From Cloeon dipterum (Eukaryota > Arthropoda > Insecta > Ephemeroptera > Baetidae), in NCBI RefSeq assembly GCF_949628265.1, contig NC_088788.1, forward strand, positions 34,210,335 through 34,274,334: a DNA stretch of 64,000 nucleotides. The letters are read 5' to 3'. The position numbers were made by a program, and so were the translations under genes. Of this stretch, positions 16,240 through 63,361 are shown piece after piece; position 1 is the first letter of the stretch; every line of letters begins with the position of its first letter. The notes beneath the pieces are model-generated. The model saw only the letters and a program-made list of their open reading frames with translations. It searched no databases and was not told where the DNA came from.

Positions 16240-19152
16240 TAAAATAACTATGAAAAAAGAACTTGCAATGTGATTTACCTTCCCCCTTTTCTTAAATATG
16301 TTGCTGAACAGAGATCAAGGATTCATGAAAAGTCTTTGTGTTAAATCTAATCTAATCCAACGTGCAATTATTATTCATCGCGCTATTTTAGTCTTCAACC
16401 AGTTAATTACATCAGCATTGAATTTTTTGGTCCTTGTTTGCATGCGACAAAACCTTTATGATTGAGACCTTTAAATGAATTAAATGAGAAGGCTGAAGAA
16501 TGACACTTTTATTTACAAAAATAAATTATTCTATTTGGAATATTTTACGAGTCTAATCCAATCTCAGAAAAATAAACCAATACAACGTAACACTACACTA
16601 TAATATATATTAAGAACCAAAAATAAATCAGTAAAGCTTGTTGAATTTCTTATATTTATAAAGCTGGAGCATTTGGCTAAATCAAGTAAAGTGATAGTTA
16701 AAAATCCACAATCACGGATATCCATCTTAAATTCAGAGATTCCTGCTTCTACAACAATAATATGAAAAATTTCTACGTTTCTATTAGTGAAAAGAGTAAT
16801 AAAGCTCACCAAATCTTCTGCAAAATGTTCCATTTTTCTTTGGTTGTCTATAAAATGAGAAAGAATCCAGCTGTATAAAGCTCCGAAATGTTCGATAGAA
16901 TGGGAATTTTTTCATAGCTATAGAAAATGACAATATTACGATTTTCATAGAAGAAAAATTACAACACAAACCATTTCACAAGGATAATGTGTGATTGCGG
17001 CGATTAATAATTACTCAATAATTATGTGCATAGCAACAAACAACTTGAAAAAAGCACTTAAAAATAAAAACCTATAAATACGATGTGCATAAATATTATT
17101 AATCTACAACCTTACCGGATTTTAACCGTCTCTTTGGAAACCTTTAATAAATATTTTATTGTGAAATCATTACCAACAAATTATATTTTTTATAAACAAA
17201 CATAATGGTTTTATAAGTTGAAATTAGAAATTAAAGGCAGTTTCATTATGTAGTGTATATTTTAGATATAGTTTTGGTCACTCACGGGTTTGACCCAAAT
17301 TCATTTAGCGGAGCAGCTGTATATTTCTTTCGTGATGGATACGTTTCACGTTTGCTCAAAAAGTTTTAACCATGCATTTCTTCTTTTTGTCCTTTTTTGG
17401 CCTATTAATCAAAGTATTTTCTTTTTGAACCTTTCTTGCTCTGTGGCTTGAAATATAAATTTTTCATGCGTTAATCTGGCGGTCATGCTTTCTTTGTCTC
17501 TCTCCCCTCTCGTAGCTGGGTTATTGTGCTTTCTTCCTGGGTGGTCGCGTCCCTTAAAACATTTTCCCACACCCTTTTCTGATTTTTCCCAGTTGTAATT
17601 TATTTACACTGGGCTGGTAACCTCTGGAATAACAAAATGAAACTAAATATGACATTTCATCTGTTGCTATAATCGTTTCAGTTGGTTTTATTTGAGCTGT
17701 GTAGAAGGCACCGCTATAATTGATAAGTTTAGCCAAAATCGCCGAGTGTGTGTACATTTTACATACAAAATGATACACGTCATTATTTTGTTGAAAAAAC
17801 CTAGTTGCGGGGTGTTTCCACGATTCGCGAGTTTGACAATATGCTATTTCTGGAGAAACGAGCCTCTCAAAACGTTAAAAAATGAGAATATCTCGAGTTC
17901 TATAATGCTAGAACATTGAACGTAGTGATGAAATATGCCCATTTCACAACTTTTAAACTCAAATCATTTTAGCTTTGAGTAATATTTTAGTTCATTTTTT
18001 AACGTTCCATAGGAATAATTAGCTTTTGATGAAATGGACACGTAAACTATTCAAACAGACGAGAGGTAATTAATTTTAATTTTTGTAATTTTCCGTTGAA
18101 AATTACGCAACACATTTTCTTAAGTTGGTCAAAATTTTAAATCCAGTTCAGGAAAACGTGGAAGCAGCCAAAAAGAAAAACGCGCATTATTATAATTTAA
18201 TAAGACGTTATAATTTTTAATAACGCAAAAAGAGTAATTTTTATTTGTTTACAAAGTTTGGGACGAAATGTTGCCCCTAATGTGTGTAACATATAATAAT
18301 ATGCTTCGAAAAGTTCAAGACTATGAAATATTTATTTTGTGACATGCGGAGGCTCAGAGGTGGAAAACTCGGTATTTTTTAGCTTCGGTGAACATTAAGA
18401 AAAAATAAAAAATGCACGATTTTTGCCGGTACACCCCTGAGGTAAGAAAAGACCATTAGACAGGTAGAAAATTAAGCCCTCGAGGGATCGATATAATTAA
18501 ATTTACCTGTGCTTAGCCACTTTAACGACGCCTGAAAAGCTCTGTGTATGGATACGAACTGCACACCGTTTAAACGACCAAGTCAAGATAGAGCTTTCAG
18601 AATATTGTGCAATTCGACCCTTTGGAAATAATCAAGGCACTCAGGATACAGGACACGCTCAATTAATCTAGTTCCTGAGCACCCTTAGGTCGACGCATAC
18701 GCACCGGACTTTTAATTCGGTAATTAAAAAATTCAGGCTGTTAAAAATACAATTATTGATAAGAAAAAGATGTAATTTATTTGGGCAGTAAAAGAATTGA
18801 TTGAGAGGAACCTTCCATAGGCAAATAGAGGTGGCATTGCAATAGCTATCGTGAGAGGAGTGAAAGTTAATGAGCTCAAAAGCAATACGGCCTCTTCTTC
18901 CCTGCTCTTCTTCGAGCGAAAACACAAAAGAATAGGAGCCTGGCGGAAAAGACGAGGGAATTACGCCGCAAACCGCGCCGTCGATTTATCGCCAGCCGGC
19001 CCACCTTTTAATTGCTCCGAGACTGGTTCTCCAAGTCCAAGGAACAAAACGAAGAGCGCGTGATGTGTGCAGCAGCAGCAGCAGCATTGCCAGTACATTC
19101 AGTCGGCTTTCGACAGCGCAGCAGAAGAATGCACTGACTGCTGAGGAAAGAG
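16240..19152. other. Spacer between pnt and the MFS gene
   Basis: AT-rich, with no supported gene. The last 200-300 bp become more GC-rich and probably contain the promoter and 5' UTR of the MFS gene. The short open frames in it show no family motif. Confidence 0.5.
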
Positions 19153-34461: not shown

Positions 34462-37400
34462 ATGTCTAGTTTGCTTGCCCAATACGAGCAAGAAGCTCAG
34501 CAAATCCAAAGATCAGGAATGGTATGTAAATAATTACCAGGCTACTGTGACAAACTACAATATATTCACTTCAAAACTTTTCAGGGCACAACTGGTTTTA
34601 TCAATATCCTGATGGAAGAGGAGCCAGCTATGTTCAGTAAATTAAGAGTTAACATTCCATCAAGAGCACCGGTTCAGCGACTGGTTGCCAGCAATGACAT
34701 TGCTCTGATTGCTCTGACTGATAATACAATTTACCGCATTAATCAAAAATATCCTGATAAATTTGAGGGTGAGCTTTAATTTTATTAATTTTGAGAAATG
34801 TGTAATGCAATATGTTTTCGAAACGTCAGAACTTGATCTAGGCAAACCTATGACGGTGCCGATGAGGATTGTAGGAATATTTCTCGATCCTTGGGGTCAG
34901 CATGCGTTAGTCAGTGTGGCCTCCAAACATGGAGACGCTCAGCCTGAGCTGCTCTTCTTATCTGGCAAGTCGACCAAGTTCCGTCTAAGCAGCCGAGCGA
35001 GGGGCTGCGAAATAACAGCTGTAGGCTGGAACCACATCAACAACACACCTGCCACGACAGGTCCCATACTCGCAGGTTCCTCCAAAGGGCTCCTGTTTGA
35101 GTGTGAGTTTTTGGCTGAAACAGACAGGATGTTCCTAATGAGCTGGGAAAAATGTTGGAAAGAGGCAAGCATTCAGATTATTCTCAAGATTAATTAATTA
35201 TTAATTTTTAACGCAGGCTTATGACATCGGGAAAGGCTCCATCATGCCAATCCTCGGTTTGGAGTTTCACAAGGCTTTAGCTGTCTCAGATCGCTATTAC
35301 GTTCTGGCGATCACTGCCAACCGCATCTATCAGTTCGCTGGCAGCACGAGCGGACCAGATGACAAACCAATTCTGCTACAGATATTCAACAGCAACCTCA
35401 ACTCTAGCATTCCAGGTATTTGAACCTTGTAGTTTATTATAATTTAATTATATTCAAAAAAAATTCTCCAGAACAATATTTGGAAATTTCGCCGCCACTA
35501 AAGAACTCGAGGCTCCAATTCTACTTCAACCAAATCAAAGAAGCGCCGAAAACATATGGCTGGCTGAATTCCAAAGGCTTGTTCCATTCTGATGTACGGA
35601 CTGAGTTTTTGCCAGAGAAATGCAGAATAACGTTGAAGTTTCCAGGTTGACAGCACAAGCCTCCCAGGACAAAATAGATTTGCAGCTTGCAAGGTGGTTA
35701 AGTTCGGTTCGGCAGATGGAGTAGCGCCTGATTTGCCAACTTCCTTCACCCTGACGCAATTCCACGCCGTTTTTCTTTACCCAGACAGAATTGAGGCTGT
35801 TTGTTTGCTCAATGAAGAGAAAATATTTGAAGATCAATTTCAGACTGAAGTGAGTTTTTAATTTTTCAATGACATTTTCTGATTAACTACAGCTGAAATC
35901 AAACAGTTGTCTGGAAAGCTGCTAGGAATATCAAAAGATTCGCTTAAAGGATACATCTGGGTGTATTCTGAGAAGTCAGTTTTCAAATACAAGGTGACCC
36001 AAGAGAACAGAAACATGTGGAAAGTATTTCTCGACGCTGGTGACTTTGAACGGGCCCTTGATTTCTCTAAAGACAATGTGAAGCACATGGAAACTGTTTT
36101 GGTTAGGAAAGCAGAGACGCTGTTCCAAAAGGAGAAGTAGGGCAATTAAATAAGGTTTCGGCCTTTTTAGTAATGTTTTCGGTTAGGTACTTGGAGAGCG
36201 CTCATGCCTTTGCTGAAACGCAGAGCTCATTTGAGGAAATCGCTCTGAAGTTTTTACAAAAATGGGAGATCGAAGCACTGAAGACCTTCCTGCGCTTGGT
36301 AGTCTAGTTTAATTTTAAAAACCGCAACAAATTTACGTTTAATTTGCAGAAACTAGAAAAAATCAAACCGCAAGACAAAACCCAAATTACCATGTTGTGC
36401 ATTTGGGTAATAGAGCTGTTCATGAATCAGCTTGGTGAGCTTAGAGACAGTGGGAAATCTGATTCTGCAGAGTACGCATTACTTCAAAATCATTTTGACA
36501 GCTTTATGAGCCATCGTCTTGTGCAGGTAAAACAAAGGCTGCAATTATTACTGCGAGCTATTAATTTAATTTATTTAGGAATGCGCGAGGAACAATTGTG
36601 ACACAATTTACGATCTGATGGCCAGCCATGGCGACAAAGACAATCTGGACAAATTCACCCTACTCAATAAAGACTACGAACGCGTGATTGCCCAGAACAT
36701 TCAGAAGAATTGCTTCGACGAAGGTGACAAATTCACAATTCCATATTGTGCACAAATACTCATGTTTGACCTCTCTCAATCAGCACTGAACGTTCTTAGG
36801 GAGCACGGGAGAAAGGACAGCTTCTATCAGTTCGCTCCAGCACTCATGCAGGCCATTCCCAAAAGAATGGTTCAAGCCCTGATAGGCCAGGGCAGGAGTT
36901 TGTCGCCAGCCAAACTAATCCCAGCACTGGTGTTGTGTGATAAGGGCTCCAGCGACTTGCAGGCGTGGGAAACAATCCGCTACCTGAAACATTGTGTTGA
37001 AGACCTGCAGTGCAAGGACCAGGCCATTCACAACTACTTACTTGCCCTCTACGCCAGGCTAGATCCAGGAAAACTCATGGACTACCTATCTAGGCAAGGT
37101 AATAATGAAAATTGTTGGTTTATACGAGATATTTATTATACCAGGGCTGTCAGTAACATTTCTTGAGTACCCTGAAGACATCTAAAGTCTAAAGGGTCAA
37201 ATTGCACTACTTATTCTTAAAGATCTCAATTTGGACGTTCCAAAAGTGTGCAGATCTTGCAAATTTAACCAATACAAAGTCCATAGGTGTCGGTTAATTT
37301 GCTACAGATTGGAATTGAATGGTGTCAATTGATCTAGGGCTACCCTGATGCCAGGGTTCAATTTAATACCTTTTTTGATGGTCTTGTTGGACTTCAGACA

Positions 37401-41220: not shown

Positions 41221-41980
41221 TTAATTGGTAAATTAGAATCTAGTTTATTATAAATCACTATTTTTATTTTTTATCACAAAAATTTTAACTATTAAGCTAA
41301 TATATGAAAGAGTTAAGAAATTCCTCTAAATTATTTAAAAGGCCGATATAATCTTACTTTCTATCTGAAGTAGTTGAAGACAATGTTGCGAAGTAAGTTC
41401 ATTTAGAGATAATGACTTCGTTTGGATCATATCAGTGAATTTCCCAGCTATTATATTATAATCAATTTTTTAGCATCAGAAAAAAATTATTGAAAAAATA
41501 ATCTCTGCTGATAAACCAATATTGATTTGTTTAATTCCAATAATTTACTAAAATATTTAATTGCAATGAAGGGAAAGTGGCCCCTCAGTGGGCTGGGCCC
41601 TGTGCGGCATATGGTGTTATCCGTTCGCTGTGTTATTGGGACCCGCGTGTCAGCATTCTTGCTATAGTGCAGTGCGCGCCCTTCCCAGTCCTCAGACAGG
41701 GATTAAAAAGAGCAAAAAAAGGTTGTAAATTAAATCACTTAATTGTTCACATTTAAACATTAAAATATAAGTGTGATATATAATTAAAATGAAGTATACA
41801 ATGTATACAAATGTACATTAAAATATATATATAGGTATAATATAAAACATTTGAAAATTTGTTGACAAAAATTGCTTTTTTCTATATACAGCAGTTACCG
41901 GGGAAAAAATCCTCGTCTCTATTTACAACTTCTAATTTGAGTACACGGATTATGTTGCAGCAGGTATATAGTGCTGGACT

Positions 41981-42067
41981 TCAACTCTGCTGGCTGCTGT
42001 CAAATCCGTGCTCTTGCTGTACCGCATCACACAAATGAACACCATAGCTTCCATTGTATTCCTCCAT
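41981..42067 (-). other. 28-codon open frame inside the near-identical 3' flank, copy A
   Basis: ATG to TGA on the minus strand, reading MEEYNGSYGVHL..SSQQS. The same frame is intact and identical at 48237-48323. An acceptor-like TTTAG lies about 18 bp upstream, so it could be a terminal coding exon. Unproven. Confidence 0.25.
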
Positions 42068-43184
42068 CGTCTGCCCTAACCTAAACACGTGCCAAAATAA
42101 AAACTTTTCAACTTGTATAAACAGTGTACCGCGTGAAGTGTTTTTTTCGATTCAAACAGTTGCATGCATATTAATTTAAGAGACTATAATATAATAGAAT
42201 AATTCCCGTAGTATCTCATTAAGACCTGATCGATTAATCAAGCCAGTAAAACATTCCCTTAAAATTACCTTTGCTTCCCGCCAATGAGCTCATGTGTGAA
42301 GAAGCTCGATAAACGCGCACCGGCTCCTCTCAGTCGTTATTGGCAGTTTTCCTTGTCCTCCGTCAAATCCAAAGTTCTCAACACTGAGATTAAAACCGGA
42401 TCTAAAAATAGGTAAACTGTTAAAATAAAGATGCTCATGACCATAATAAACTTTTCTGGGTTTAAAAAAAGAGAAACCAGCAAAAATTTTTAATCTTTGG
42501 ATATGGTATGCCTAGATAATTTACAATTTATTATATACAAATTTTGGTTTAGCTAGAAATCGCTCACCTTTTTTAGTTGCAGTTGCTGCGTGAGGACAGA
42601 TAAATTTAAGGCTTGGCTTACAATTAGCCGATCGTCCGTCGTGTGTCACTGTGGGTTCAGTAAATAATGCGTATAAATTGAATTCATTTGTTTGGGCCCC
42701 TTTTTCGTCTGACCTGCTTGGTCATTTCTCGTTCTTGATCTCCGCCTCAGCGCTGAGAATAAAAATTATATTATTTGATTTTGCTAGCAGAGAGGACGCT
42801 TGCAGATTGATATAGGAAAGGTGGAAATATCACTGAAAGAGCAGATGAAAAATTGTCAGTTATATAGCATTATTTATAATTAATTGTTAAGGGATGTGAT
42901 TTTCAGATGGATTTGTGAGCTAAGACATTTCTACCTGCCTTTAGGTTTGGACAGGGAAAATTTTTGATCAAATAAAGCACGTGCCATAAATACTGGAAAA
43001 GTCAGTTCCGCGTTGAACACGCAAATAAACACAATTCACTACAAAAATTTCCTTTTCAAGACATGGCAATCATAAAATATATTAAGGCGTTTCTCAGGAG
43101 TGTAAAAAATGGACGGGGTAGTATTTTAGAATTTAGGAGATTTGAAATAATGCTAAATTAAAAACTCAACAAGCCGGAATGAGA

Positions 43185-47184: not shown

Positions 47185-48236
47185 TTTAGAAATTTCCTAA
47201 AAATGTACCAGCAAAACAGAACCAATTAAACGCGACACTCAACAGGTGCGCACAAACGAGAACGAATGGGAAATGTGAAGTTAGCCACTCTCAAAAGATA
47301 TCCGCTTTTTTAGCAATGCTGCCAACCTAAATTTTCAAATGCAAATAGGGGGGTTTGACTCAAGGGACGTGGGTGATTCAGTTCATGGCCATGGCAAAAT
47401 AATATGAAATGCATCTCTTAGAGAACAAATTAAAATTTCAGCATAATAAAGGATTAAATTAACCAACAGCTTCACCTTTAAAAGTTCAAATTAAAATCTC
47501 ATATATTTTATTTATTTATCTTGGGTTTTATTTATATCACAAAAATTTAGAACTATCAAGCTAATGTAAGAGTTTAGAAATTCCTCTAAATTATTGACTA
47601 GGATAATCTTATTTTCTATCCGAAGTAGTTGAAGACAATGTTGCGAAGTAAGTTCATTTAGAGATAATGACTTCGTTTGGATCATATCAGTGAATTTCCC
47701 AGCTATTATATTAGAATCAATTTTTTAGCATCAGAAAAAAATTATTGAAAAAACAATCTCTGCTGATAAACCAATATTGATTTGTTTAATTCCAATAATT
47801 TACTAAAATATTTAATTGCAATGAAGGGAAAGTGGCCCCTCAGTGGGCTGGGTCCCTGTGCGGCATATGGTGTTATCCGTTCGCTGTGTTATTGGGACCC
47901 GCGTGTCAGCATTCTTGCTATAGTGCAGTGCGCGCCCTTCCCAGTCCTCAGACAGGGATTAAAAAGAGCAAAAAAAGGTTGTAAATTAAATCACTTAATT
48001 GTTCACATTTAAACATTAAAATATAAGTGTGATATATAATTAAAATGAAGTATACAATGTATACAAATGTACATTAAAATATATATATAGGTATAATATA
48101 AAACATTTGAAAATTTGTTGACAAATATTGCTTTTTTCTATATACAGCAGTTACCGGGGAAAAAATCCTCGTCTCTATTTACAACTTCTAATTTGAGTAC
48201 ACGGATTATGTTGCAGCAGGTATATAGTGCTGGACT

Positions 48237-48323
48237 TCAACTCTGCTGGCTGCTGTCAAATCCGTGCTCTTGCTGTACCGCATCACACAAATGAACACCA
48301 TAGCTTCCATTGTATTCCTCCAT
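48237..48323 (-). other. 28-codon open frame inside the near-identical 3' flank, copy B
   Basis: Identical counterpart of 41981-42067 in unit B. Confidence 0.25.
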
Positions 48324-49213
48324 CGTCTGCCCTAACCTAAACACGTGCCAAAATAAAAACTTTTCAACTTGTATAAACAGTGTACCGCGTGAAGTGTTTT
48401 TTTCGATTCAAACAGTTGTATGCATATTAATTTAAGAGACTATAATAATAGAATAATTCCCGTAGTATCTCATAAAGACCTGATCGATTAATCAAGCCAG
48501 TAAAACATTCCCTTAAAATTACCTTTGCTTCCCGCCAATGAGCTCATGTGTGAAGAAGCTCGATAAAAGCGCACCGGCTCCTCAGTCGTTATTGGCAGTT
48601 TTCCTTGTCCTCCGTCAAATCCAAAGTTCTCAACACTGAGACCCAAACTGGATCTAAAAATAGGTAAAATGTTAATCTAAAAATGTTCATGACCATAAAA
48701 AAATTTATGGGTTTTCAAAAACGTGCAGCCAGCAAAGTTTTTTTTTTAATTTTCGGATTTGGTCTGCCTATAGAGATAATTTAAAAAATTTGTTACCAGT
48801 CAGAAATCTCTCACCTTTTTTAGTTGTAGTTCCTGCGTGAGGACAGAGAAATGAAGTCTTTGTTAGCCGCTCGTCTGTCGTGTGTCACTGTGTGCTCAGT
48901 AACAATGCATTTATTTTCCTTGGGCGTTTTTTGTCTGCTGGACCTGCTTGGTCACTCGTCTCTTTCCATCTCATCTAGCGTTGAGAATTAAAATTAAATT
49001 ATTTAATTTTGCTGGCAGAGGATGCATGCAGATTTTAGTATTGATTGAAAATGTGAATATCCCAGAAAGGGCTAATGACAAAGTGTCATATATATAACAT
49101 TATTTATAATTAATTGTTAAGGGATGTAATTTTCAGATGGATTTGTGATTTTTACCTGCCTTTCCCTTCATTTCAAAATTTAGCACAAATTTGCACCGAT
49201 TTACCTTTCCAGA

Positions 49214-51642: not shown

Positions 51643-52063
51643 TACGCGGATTGCTACAAAAAAATGGTTTATACATTTTAAAAATACAATTATAACTGCA
51701 AGATGAGATGGTTAGAAATCGGTTAAATATAGGAAAGAGGAAAATTAAAAAAAATGAAATGTTACAAAAAATACAAAAATATTAAAAAAAAAAAACACCA
51801 GAAAATTTTTATTTAAAGATTTTTTTTGTGAATCATTCTTCAAGTTTCACGGTAAAAGTCCAAATATATATTATCTCAAATATTTTCTAATTGCTAATTT
51901 ATTTTCAAAATATTTCAGCATAAACAACTAAACCATAATTCAAGAAATACCCAATAGAGATAAAAAAGTAAAAAGAAATATAGAGTGTAATAAGATGTAA
52001 AACGTAGAAAAGTGTTAGAGAGCAAGAAAAAATGAAAAGCAAAAAAACAGCAACGATTATAAC

Positions 52064-52409
52064 TAGAGTGTATTTCAAGAACAAGACCGAAAAATAATAC
52101 CGGATTTCCGGTATTGTTCTTGTTTTGCCGGATTTTTTTCTAAATTCAATACTAGAACAATAACAAACAATACTGGAAAATGCAATACAAGAATAATGTT
52201 TTTTCCTGAATTCTTTATGGTGGTAGAGAAATTTTCATAGAAAAATTCATCTAATTTTTAGAAATCCCTATTTTTGGTCGTGTAAATTTGGGTTTCATTG
52301 GTGCCAAAAAATCGGCAAAAAAATCTAGTTTATTTTGGTTTAGTTATCTTGCTACCGATTTCGGCAAAAAACAAGTCCATACAAAAATTTGGTCTTGAAA
52401 TACACTCTA
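52064..52409. mobile_element. hAT-type MITE with 8-bp target duplication
   Basis: Ends TAGAGTGTATTTCAAG (52064) and CTTGAAATACACTCTA (to 52409) are perfect inverted repeats. The 8 bases ATTATAAC flank both sides (52056-52063 and 52410-52417). An 8-bp duplication and a TAGNG terminus are typical of hAT elements. The 346-bp interior has no transposase and includes a short palindrome around CCGGATTTCCGG. Confidence 0.8.
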
Positions 52410-52628
52410 ATTATAACTCCTAGAAAAGTAAGAAACAGTAGAGATTTTCATAGGGGGATTTTAATTGACTCTTGGTTTCCTCTCCTAGGAATAGTCCTGG
52501 ATTTTTTTATTTGCTTTTCATCCCTGTCAGAGGGCCGTGAAGGGCGCGCACTGTGATAGCATGAATGCTGATACCCGGTCGGGTCACAATAACACCGCCA
52601 AAATAACATATGGGCGCACCAGGCCGCA

Positions 52629-53200
52629 CAATCGGAGGTTAATGCTCGTGTCGGATTTGTACGAAGATGAGATTTTAACTCCATTGAAGATCGTCGATTG
52701 AAGACCGATTTGTATATTTGTTGAGTATGATTCTAAATGACTAACCATGGAACTGAGATTTATAATTTAGGTGCCACTTGTCATTTAGAATTAAATCTGA
52801 CGGTTTTTAATTGATTTTAAACAAAATAATCAACTTATTTCACCTCTCGCCTCAATTAAACTATTCGTGACATGGCTCCCCGGCGGGGATTCGAACCCCA
52901 ATCTCCCGCTAGAGAGGCGGGGATAATACCACTATACTACCGAGGATTTAATACACTGTCACGAATAGAAGTTTCATTGGGGCGAGAGGAGAAATAAATT
53001 GATTATTTTGTTTAAAATCAATTCAAAACCGTCCGATTTAATTCTATGTGACGAGTGGCAATTAAGTTATAAATTTCAGTTTCATGGTTAGTCATTTACA
53101 ATTATACTCAACAAATATACAAATTGGTCTTCAATCGACGATCTTCAATGGAGTTAATCTCATCGTCGTACAAATCCGAAACGAGCATAAACCTCCAATT
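52629..53200. repeat. Long inverted repeat with a tRNA gene in its loop
   Basis: The left arm 52629-52871 and right arm 52958-53200 are about 90% reverse-complementary over 243 bp (inner ends CTATTCGTGAC / GTCACGAATAG). The 86-bp spacer is almost entirely the tRNA gene. Transcribed as one unit it would fold into a long hairpin. No target-site duplication was seen at the outer ends. Confidence 0.9.
52876..52946 (-). tRNA. tRNA with CTC anticodon (Glu by anticodon) on an Asp-like body
   Basis: 71 nt fold as a cloverleaf: acceptor TCCTCGG/CCGGGGA, D arm GTAT..TTAT, anticodon stem CCCGC/GCGGG with loop CTCTCTA (anticodon CTC, decoding GAG), and T arm with loop TTCGAAT. An A box (TAGTATAGTGG) and a B box (GGTTCGAATCC) are present. 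The acceptor, anticodon stem and discriminator G closely resemble animal tRNA-Asp(GTC), not tRNA-Glu. CCA follows the discriminator in the genome. No T run lies directly downstream. It may be a functional tRNA, a reassigned Asp gene or a tRNA-derived pseudogene. Confidence 0.75.
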
Positions 53201-53245
53201 GGTTCGTCTTTCAGTTAAAAGTTTAGTAGCTGGTCCGTATCCACA

Positions 53246-53542
53246 CTACAGCCTCTCGGCCAGGTTGCCTTTATAAACATACATTTCGCCATAGTAAATA
53301 TACAAAGTCTCACAGGAATAACGATGATTTGGAAACAAATTCACAATAAGAAAATACACCCAAAAAATTGTTTTGAACATTAGTTCAAATCGAAAAGTAC
53401 GCAGCTTCGCATCGAAGCGTGCCAGGCTTGAGCATACGCTCTTGCCAGGCTCACAAATATTCTCAATAGTGAATATTCCAAATATATCTCTTATAGATGG
53501 CGAAACACAACAGTCACAAAAGAAATTTAACGAGTGATACAA
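53246..53542 (-). pseudogene. 98-codon open frame ending at a transposon boundary, unknown
   Basis: An open frame with one hydrophobic segment (FKTIFWVYFLIVNLF) and several Cys. It abuts the left end of the 2-kb TIR element. Not recognised; possibly the remnant of a gene cut by the element, together with 55556-55777. Confidence 0.2.
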
Positions 53543-53546
53543 TTAC

Positions 53547-55555
53547 TCCCCGCATAAAAAAATAAAACCCAGGAATATCCTGATTAATCCTAGATTAATC
53601 TAAATTTATCTGAAAAAATTAATCCAAAAAAATGTTCCAGGATTAATCCTGGATTAATCAAGATTAACCTAAGATAGTTTAAGATCAATCTAGAGATCAA
53701 TCTACAGGAAATATCCTCTGATTATTCTTTGGATCTATCTAAGATTAATCCAAAAAATTAATTTCTGGAATGTTCCTGGAATGAATCCTGATTAACCTTA
53801 AAATGTTCTTAAGTCAATCTAGAGATTAATCTACAAGAATATCCCTAGAATAATCCCAAAGTGGAAATTTGAATATAGCTAAAAGATTATCCCCAGATTA
53901 TTCTATGGATCATTCTGAGATTAATCCAAAAATATTTTTTTAATGTTCCTGGAATATTCGTTAAAAAACCCTAAAAGAGAAGAACTTAGATATTTTTCTT
54001 ACAATTTAAAACACAAAATTAAATATGAAACATAATTTAAACAAGAAAATTAACTGCCATACTGTTAAATATTTTGAAATCGTTATCACAAAAAAAAATT
54101 TTTCTCGCAAATATTTTTTTAATTAATGCAATGGATTAAATTTTTATATTAAAACCTAACAAATTTTTCATTATCTCAACAAAAAATATGATGCCTTTAT
54201 TTTTCAAAGAATCTGCTCAGATTAAAAAGGGTAAAAATCATTAATTCGATTAAATAAATTAATTTCTTAATACAAAGAGTCTTAAATTAATGCTACCGAC
54301 AAACGGGCAAATTTGAAAATAAAGGTCAGAAGGACAAAAAGGGTTAAAAGGGCGATTTTAGTGTGCGCGTGGTAGCGGCGGCTGCACATGCATGCACGCA
54401 CTTGCATGGAATGCCTGCTGCCTGCCTGCTTCTGTTGTGGAGTGGGGGAGGGGCGACGGGCGCTGGCAGCAGGACTGGCGAGCAGCAGCAGCAAGAGACA
54501 AAATCCTGCCTCGCTCTCTTTGTCTAACGCGTCAACGGTCAACCAATGTTCAAAGTTAAAGTTATTAACGGACGCAGGACGCCGGACGCCGCCAGTATGG
54601 GACATCACGGACGTCCCGCGGACTCCGACGGATGGCCTGGATCTTGCGGTTAACAGGGTATGTCTCATTTTATAGATTAGCGTCCAAAGAAATTAGTAAA
54701 GATCGCGCAACTTTCAAATCCAACGGTTTTATGGTAAAATTTAACTTTTTGCTGCTACTTACGCAGTTTTCGCCACCAATATTTTGATGTGGGATTCTCG
54801 CAAGTCCTTAAGTTATTAATTAGAACCCCATAAATAAGTTTGGGTGGCGGAAACTGTAAGTCGGTGATGAAAAATGTGTAATTTTTCTATGTAAATCGCG
54901 GTGGCATTTCTGGATCTGTTCTTGTCATGCTGCCTTTGCCTGAACCAAATCATTTTGTTGCACAGCCTGTCCTTCATTCTTGTTCTTATTGACATGAACT
55001 GTATGATTAATTTGTCAAAAGCAGTATTTTGATTTGTGTTTAATCTTAAATACTGATATTTGTGTAGTGCCCAAAATATTTGGATGTATATATATGCACT
55101 CTGTCATTGTGAAACCATAATTATTATGCTCTACTGCCTGTATGTGAAATGAAAAATAAAATAATTATTCTTGGAATAAATATATATGTTTAATTATTGT
55201 GTAAACCCCAATTAAAATTTAAGACAATAATAAATTAAATTTTATTAAAATAAAGAGCCAAGGAATAATTTTTTTCACGTTTGAAATTGATCCTGGATTA
55301 ATTTGAGGAAGTTCCTAAGAAAGACCGAAGAATGTTCCAGGAATATTCTTAGGAGGAACGCAAGAGTTTTCTGACATCCCCCTAAGAACATCCCTGGGAC
55401 ATTCTAGGATTATCTTTTTGGGATAATCCTCGGATTAATCTAAAAACACGAAAAAGCGTCACCAATATCAGCCCAGAATTGTTCCTGAGGATTGATCCTC
55501 GACCAAAGAGGTATATTCCTAGAACAATCCTGGACTAAATTTTTCTACGCGGGTC
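53547..55555. mobile_element. 2-kb terminal-inverted-repeat element with subterminal GGATTAATC repeats
   Basis: The ends CCCCGCATAAAAAAAT (left) and ATTTTTCTACGCGGG (right) are inverted, with similarity continuing about 30 bp inward. Both subterminal regions (about 53560-53960 and 55270-55545) are packed with variants of GGATTAATCC and TTCCTGGAAT. The interior includes a GC-rich block (54340-54675) and AT-rich DNA without a transposase. The superfamily is not assigned and the target duplication is unclear (perhaps GTAA). Confidence 0.65.
54340..54675. other. GC-rich block inside the TIR element
   Basis: About 330 bp of CpG-rich sequence in AT-rich surroundings, ending in AACAG|GTATGT like an exon-donor junction. 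Both strands are open for about 95-130 codons, but without recognisable protein character. It resembles a captured promoter/first exon. Confidence 0.3.

Positions 55556-58380: not shown

Positions 58381-63361
<4,981 letters not shown>

Follow-up and report, generated by a model that had tools for sequence, protein, structure and literature searches.

A palindrome with a tRNA loop in Cloeon dipterum: two head-to-head LTR ends around a probable copy of a primer tRNA

A palindrome in a 64,000-nucleotide stretch of the Cloeon dipterum genome (NC_088788.1, positions 34,210,335 to 34,274,334; hereafter the window) is built from two U5-side ends of one LTR-retrotransposon family (family 1), set head to head around a full copy of a tRNA that carries a CCA end and lies flush against an LTR terminus. 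The genome contains further head-to-head LTR palindromes of a similar kind. We propose that the window palindrome is what remains of an aberrant round of reverse transcription by an LTR retrotransposon, a reading that we consider to have a probability of about one half. Our comparisons establish the identity of the parts (arms, tRNA-Asp with CCA, flush junction), and we infer from these the steps by which the structure would have formed. The features of the locus, numbered from the first base of the window, are as follows.

52440 to 52500: left flank, diffuse repeat of the GGAATATTCCTGG/GATTAATCC type, related to the stretch 55336-55395
52501 to 52630, minus strand: SINE, 5'-truncated; it abuts the left arm at its truncation point, where the two overlap by 3 nt (CAA)
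52629 to 52872, plus strand: left arm, corresponding in sense orientation to 439-683 of the LTR, with the U5 terminus ...CGTGACA at its end
52823 to 52826, minus strand: first T4 (pol III stop) beyond the tRNA copy, 46 nt from its end
52873 to 52946, minus strand: full tRNA-Asp copy plus CCA (CCA at 52875-52873), from ARAGORN, Rfam and genome comparison
52947 to 52956: 10-nt spacer, TTTAATACAC, separating the right LTR terminus from the tRNA 5' end
52957 to 53201, minus strand: right arm, the U5-side portion of the right LTR, inverted (arm alignment)
52957 to 53548, minus strand: right LTR, inverted, aligned to LTR positions 7-683 with a single internal gap (about 142-222 missing)
53568 to 53960: right flank, a diffuse repeat of the left-flank type

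Global alignment of the left arm (244 nt) with the inverted right arm (245 nt) gave 221 identities, 21 mismatches and 5 gap positions, or about 90% identity, and the arms were also recovered as inverted blocks of 188, 46 and 12 nt (91%, 91% and 100% identical, respectively). An earlier note on this DNA, made from the letters alone, had described arms of equal length and roughly 90% complementarity around a spacer that is essentially a tRNA, and both descriptions hold: the loop is 84 nt long (52873-52956), and the window's sole tRNA call (ARAGORN, 52873-52946; Rfam, 52876-52946) lies inside it on the minus strand, leaving only the 10-nt spacer. The right arm belongs to a longer repeat, of which it forms the inner portion and which extends to about 53548; the symmetry of the arms therefore reflects the point at which the left arm is truncated. 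The palindrome is oriented with U5 inward; the U3 part of the left LTR is lost, and the outermost ~6 nt of the right U3 end are altered or lost. Elsewhere in the window, open frames at 34718-37166 and 58952-59434 resemble, by eye, Vps18 and a DEAD-box helicase.

The earlier note had supposed that pol III, acting from the internal A and B boxes of the tRNA, could drive a long hairpin transcript. A locus of this kind, serving as an esiRNA source that silences family 1, would draw on the strong predicted fold of read-through RNA (-363.0 kcal/mol for the plus strand and -349.6 kcal/mol for the minus strand of the 573-nt stretch) and on a TATA-like word kept in the right LTR. The A- and B-box words are intact, but the first T4 lies 46 nt downstream of the tRNA, and a pol III transcript stopping there would include, besides the tRNA, no more than a portion of one arm. 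We rejected the pol III-driven long hairpin on the position of this T4 (52823-52826). Given also that the arms have diverged by ~10% and that the arrangement was found a single time, we regard a silencing hairpin locus as very improbable.

The arms match at least 39 other places in the genome (81 rows in total; the best 40 of 60 candidates were scored). Similarity continues beyond the right arm in all 39 of these copies, and the arm is therefore one end of a longer repeat. This repeat is an LTR of ~683 bp that starts with TGTAACG and ends with CGTTAGA or CGTGACA. Among the 32 copies with both ends located (7 of the 39 were left out), 17 are flanked by identical 4-bp target duplications, and 19 agree at 3 or 4 letters; four of these 32 copies precede a primer site, where no duplication is expected. 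One full-length copy (C5:935786-947536) spans 11.75 kb, with two LTRs that are 99.6% alike and ATGG on its flanks. It contains an integrase H2C2 match (PF17921, 74.2 bits, C5:942823-943002) within a 1423-aa open frame; a 246-aa gag piece of the same copy gave nothing over the Pfam cut-off. Directly 3' of the LTR, five of the 39 copies have a primer-binding site for tRNA-Arg(UCU) that is exact over 10-18 nt, and a search with the tRNA-Arg primer-site pattern gave five exact places. The full-length copy and a further LTR copy (C5:935600-953000) are located in an array of ~72-bp tandem units.

The earlier note had set against its reading the prospect of many dispersed copies that lack the tRNA and represent a plain foldback transposon. 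The first half of that description fits, since ARAGORN detected no tRNA in the ~500 bp on either side of any of the 39 other copies. The second half does not: the copies are LTRs, and paired inverted arms, as expected of a foldback or TIR DNA transposon, were found in the fetched stretch for just one copy (L025, 1 of 39). We also observed a second inverted pair of family-1 U5 ends, truncated, at C1:35054234-35054588, with a loop of ~36 nt that contains a primer site and leader; its inverted part measures 67 bp by BLAST and perhaps 90 bp by eye. No U3-outward pair of family 1 was found among the best 40 of 93 U3 candidates, a list in which the window's own U3 does not appear and which is therefore incomplete.

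In a tree of 40 rows (the two window arms and 38 of the 39 copies; L043, which has a short arm match, was omitted), the window arms group together with support of 96/79 and branches of 0.052 and 0.048. The branch uniting them is only 0.008 long, and another copy (L027) is equally near by path; by raw identity, the top match of each arm is a third copy, L019 (92% and 91%). The grouping of the arms, though weak, is what would be expected if both were made at one time. The same weak grouping, with near-equal branches, counts against two independent events, in which an older LTR-tRNA remnant acquired an LTR 10 bp away, whether at random or through targeting of the tRNA. Lone LTR copies of family 1 are common, and Ty3-like elements are known to insert at tRNA starts. 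Targeting of tRNAs by family 1 was nonetheless rejected, with a tRNA near none of the 39 other copies, and by a rough estimate the adjacency would arise by chance with a probability of about 1e-5. We consider two independent events improbable.

The simplest source of the loop looks like a mature primer tRNA that was reverse-transcribed. CCA is not encoded in eukaryotic nuclear tRNA genes, and the primer-binding site of an LTR element begins directly after the last LTR base. The 3' end of the window tRNA reads GGGGAG-CCA, and the CCA abuts the last LTR base with no base between; we favour a primer origin because the CCA, a post-transcriptional addition, sits flush against the LTR end. A genome search for the tRNA-Asp 3' end followed by CCA, allowing up to 3 mismatches, gave 12 places, of which only the window has the CCA. 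The window tRNA matches nine genomic tRNA-Asp genes at 89%; none of these has CCA, and each has a T-run within a few nucleotides of the 3' end; the window copy has no such T-run, its first T4 coming after 46 nt. A tRNA-derived SINE would be expected to have spread as a family headed by this tRNA, and we found no second copy of the tRNA together with the arms among the scored genome matches to either.

The anticodon of the window tRNA is CTC (Glu), and ARAGORN accordingly calls a tRNA-Glu; the body is that of tRNA-Asp, and tRNA-Glu is absent among the 11 genomic matches. Relative to the genomic tRNA-Asp genes it differs at 8 of 72 positions (7 substitutions and 1 deletion, anticodon included), and we rejected a functional tRNA-Glu on the basis of this altered Asp body. 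With arm branches of 0.05, the expected number of changes is about 3.6 (P about 0.03). The copy scores 52.1 bits in Rfam, compared with 60.4 for genuine tRNA-Asp, and has a pyrimidine at position 37, which we take to be atypical. The primer site of family 1 corresponds to tRNA-Arg and not to tRNA-Asp, which has 7 of the first 10 bases in common with it; for a tRNA-Asp to stand at a family-1 LTR, mispriming must therefore be assumed.

On its left side the palindrome meets a SINE whose A-run (as T) starts at about 52502 and whose truncated 5' side reaches the arm at 52630. This SINE occurs in at least 39 other places (39 scored of 178 candidates). A longer copy (L109) includes a 5S rRNA-like part that scores 40.6 bits with RF00001 (cut-off 38); two other copies (L110 and L103) score 29.2 and 20.1 bits, below the gathering score. 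A 1.7-kb direct duplication elsewhere in the window (41262-42942 and 47526-49163, 89% identical) has a 5S-type SINE in each copy. Immediately beside the composite, at 52057-52416, is a MITE-like stretch of ~360 bp with 28-bp inverted ends (93%).

Read along the minus strand, the order at the locus is tRNA-CCA, U5'-R', the 3' part of the SINE, and an A-run. Ohshima, Okada and colleagues reportedly proposed a strong-stop model for the origin of tRNA-derived SINEs that involves a similar structure. By analogy, a LINE reverse transcriptase working on a 5S-type SINE could have switched to a tRNA-linked minus-strand strong-stop cDNA, laying down tRNA-U5'-R'-SINE-A-run in one event beside an LTR. The available parts of two papers describe LINE chimeras with tRNA pieces (PMC13174262) and double template jumps (PMC2104539). 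Such an event leaves the inverted LTR of the same family, only 10 bp away, unaccounted for. Moreover, the left arm begins at LTR position 439, ~40 nt past the start expected from the TATA-like word at 368, and no amplified copies appeared among the scored genome matches. A possible target duplication enclosing the composite (52484-52503 and 53568-53585) was rejected: equally good scores were reached by 192 of 19282 random pairs, and because in addition both flanks belong to one diffuse repeat, the match decides nothing. Overall, we think it decidedly improbable that the structure arose as a nascent SINE.

Read-through into a primer tRNA, as our preferred reading of reverse transcription gone astray would require, has left traces elsewhere in this genome. 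A search for the tRNA-Arg 3' end followed by CCA gave three places: the gene, without CCA, and two loci with CCA (L020 and L111). At L020, 43 nt of tRNA-Arg come directly after a family-1 LTR end and contain two mismatches, one at position 56 and the other at position 58 (numbered by hand), which is presumably the m1A58 site. In the same region (L020/L097, C1:20343839-20343875), the tRNA-Arg sequence is followed by ~60 nt of other sequence and then by a second primer-site-like word. At L111, 42 nt of tRNA-Arg plus CCA form the loop of a 386-bp unit of inverted LTR ends from another family (family 2), in which the U5 border was set from the position of the CCA rather than from other copies. The best block of its arms is 68 bp at 91%, and ATAT flanks the unit on both sides. 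The tRNA piece differs from the gene at two positions that form a compensatory pair in the T stem, with A58 unchanged; because the two differences are compensatory, the piece may derive from another tRNA-Arg isodecoder rather than from copying errors.

Family 2 also consists of LTRs: three direct pairs have a spacing of ~6.45 kb, each with an integrase match. Besides L111, we found nine inverted pairs no more than 1 kb apart among 55 merged places, numbers that are lower bounds in that each underlying search scored the best 40 candidates. All nine are oriented with U3 outward, and none with U3 inward. One of the two queries was itself a palindrome and may favour palindrome finds; six of the nine pairs were also recovered with a single-LTR query, one of these being the query's own locus. 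One pair (C4:34841584/34841676) joins different LTR parts. Five palindromes were fetched, of which L116 is without ends and the other four can be assessed for a target duplication, with outer ends set by hand from the LTR start word. The four besides L111 are as follows.

L114: 956-bp head-to-head pair flanked by AACG at each end; 414-bp arms 99.8% alike; loop with a primer-site word
L115: 227 bp, flanked by AAAG at each end; arms 69% alike
L116: arms 78% alike; ends missing
L117: 140 bp; flanks ACGT and GCGT (3 of 4 letters)

Identical 4-bp flanks are thus present in three of the four assessable palindromes (AACG, AAAG, and ATAT in L111). These three have U3 ends on both outer sides together with a 4-bp duplication, and L117 matches at three of four letters. 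The window contains a family-2 LTR fragment at 18000-18093 (83%), for which no inverted partner was found within 17700-18700. The earlier note had raised the possibility of a palindromic mobile element that uses a tRNA as its core. Part of this survives: the arms are mobile-element ends, and L111 is a palindrome with primer-tRNA sequence in its loop and identical 4-bp flanks. However, we read the tRNA as a probable by-product of reverse transcription and not as a functional core, and the window palindrome itself was found once.

Plus-strand DNA of LTR elements has a fixed 5' end at U3. We suggest that at the window locus such a strand would have started at the U3 end and copied U3-R-U5, and would then have run past the stop about 18 nt into the attached primer tRNA and copied that tRNA in full. 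At or near the tRNA 5' end, the strand would have jumped to another plus strand, or folded back on itself, and copied an LTR backwards, giving the product U3-R-U5-tRNA-U5'-R'-U3'. Because this product has two U3 ends, the element's integrase could have inserted it with a 4-bp duplication, as the family-2 palindromes with 4-bp flanks suggest. Insertion of the 5'-truncated SINE would, we think, later have deleted the left U3 half. The loop would then be a record of how far the plus strand had extended: a few nucleotides in L117, the leader in L114, 42 nt of tRNA in L111, and the whole tRNA in the window. Several of these steps have precedents in the portions of the literature available to us. 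Dead-end plus-strand strong-stop products accumulate in Ty3 particles (PMC5371799), and A58 is described as a leaky stop (PMC1785368; PMC13191261), with reverse transcriptase able to reach A37 (PMC1785368).

Some features of the locus weigh against this proposal. With the left U3 absent and the right U3 altered, the two-U3 form and its target duplication are not demonstrable here; there is no intact U3-outward pair in family 1 among the scored candidates, and the model is hence partly an analogy from family 2. The spacer TTTAATACAC is not accounted for by the model, and the window tRNA has no copying error at A58, which is unchanged. Ragged outer ends on both sides, a filler-like spacer and the 3-nt overlap at the SINE joint would instead suit the capture of separate family-1 cDNA pieces at a chromosome break, where non-homologous repair would have joined an R-U5-tRNA end to an LTR; on this view the 10 nt of spacer would be filler, and the SINE would be one more captured fragment. 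Yeast breaks take up Ty1 cDNA, with a hotspot in the 3' LTR and inserts of 1 to 4 pieces, according to the accessible portion of one study (PMC10802722). The U3-outward order and 4-bp duplications of the family-2 palindromes, which admittedly belong to another family, would not be predicted by break capture, and we judge it an unlikely origin for the window palindrome, if one to be taken seriously.

A wider claim, which we put forward only tentatively, is that the LTR retrotransposons of this genome repeatedly make palindromic two-U3 cDNAs, by snap-back or template switching of the plus strand, and that integrase inserts these as small MITE-like elements whose loop reflects the extent of the plus strand, up to a complete primer tRNA. 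If so, there is a route from LTR elements to MITE-like palindromes, giving the latter a concrete LTR-retrotransposon origin, and the window would be the most extreme record of tRNA read-through. Likewise, if our reading of the window is correct, the chromosome preserves a transient step of reverse transcription, namely the read-in to the primer tRNA and the point of the template switch. There is also a practical consequence: tRNA finders may report primer copies as genes (here a tRNA-Glu, by its anticodon), and such copies can be recognized by a CCA in the genome that directly adjoins an LTR end.

Among titles and the openings of abstracts, a body of text that subscription papers largely lie outside, we found no published integrated full-length copy of a primer tRNA and no U3-outward LTR palindromes. 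Related systems nonetheless share individual features with the window, as far as the accessible parts of the papers cited here describe them. DIRS-1 has inverted LTRs (PMC5633606), but it uses a tyrosine recombinase and circular DNA, whereas here full-length relatives contain an integrase domain and 4-bp duplications are found. Capture of Ty1 cDNA at double-strand breaks likewise places LTR-end cDNA within composite insertions (PMC10802722); neither a U3-outward order nor a target duplication is expected there. Chimeras of tRNA and LINE-1, and the strong-stop SINE model, resemble the window in fusing tRNA sequence to other retro-sequence, but these are typically tRNA halves on LINE-1, with no LTR palindrome in the part of the source available (PMC13174262). 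In repair-deficient cells, 2, 4, 11 or 15 nt of primer-site sequence have been reported at HIV-1 provirus junctions; these HIV and MLV junctions are much shorter than the window structure, and the available descriptions include no palindrome (PMC2797772). Plus-strand strong-stop synthesis of HIV-1 with tRNA-Lys3 likewise copies part of the attached tRNA at the U5 end (PMC1785368; PMC13191261). The available text of one of these papers reports that the integrated proviruses it studied contained no extra tRNA sequence (PMC1785368), whereas the window palindrome contains the whole tRNA, fixed in the chromosome.
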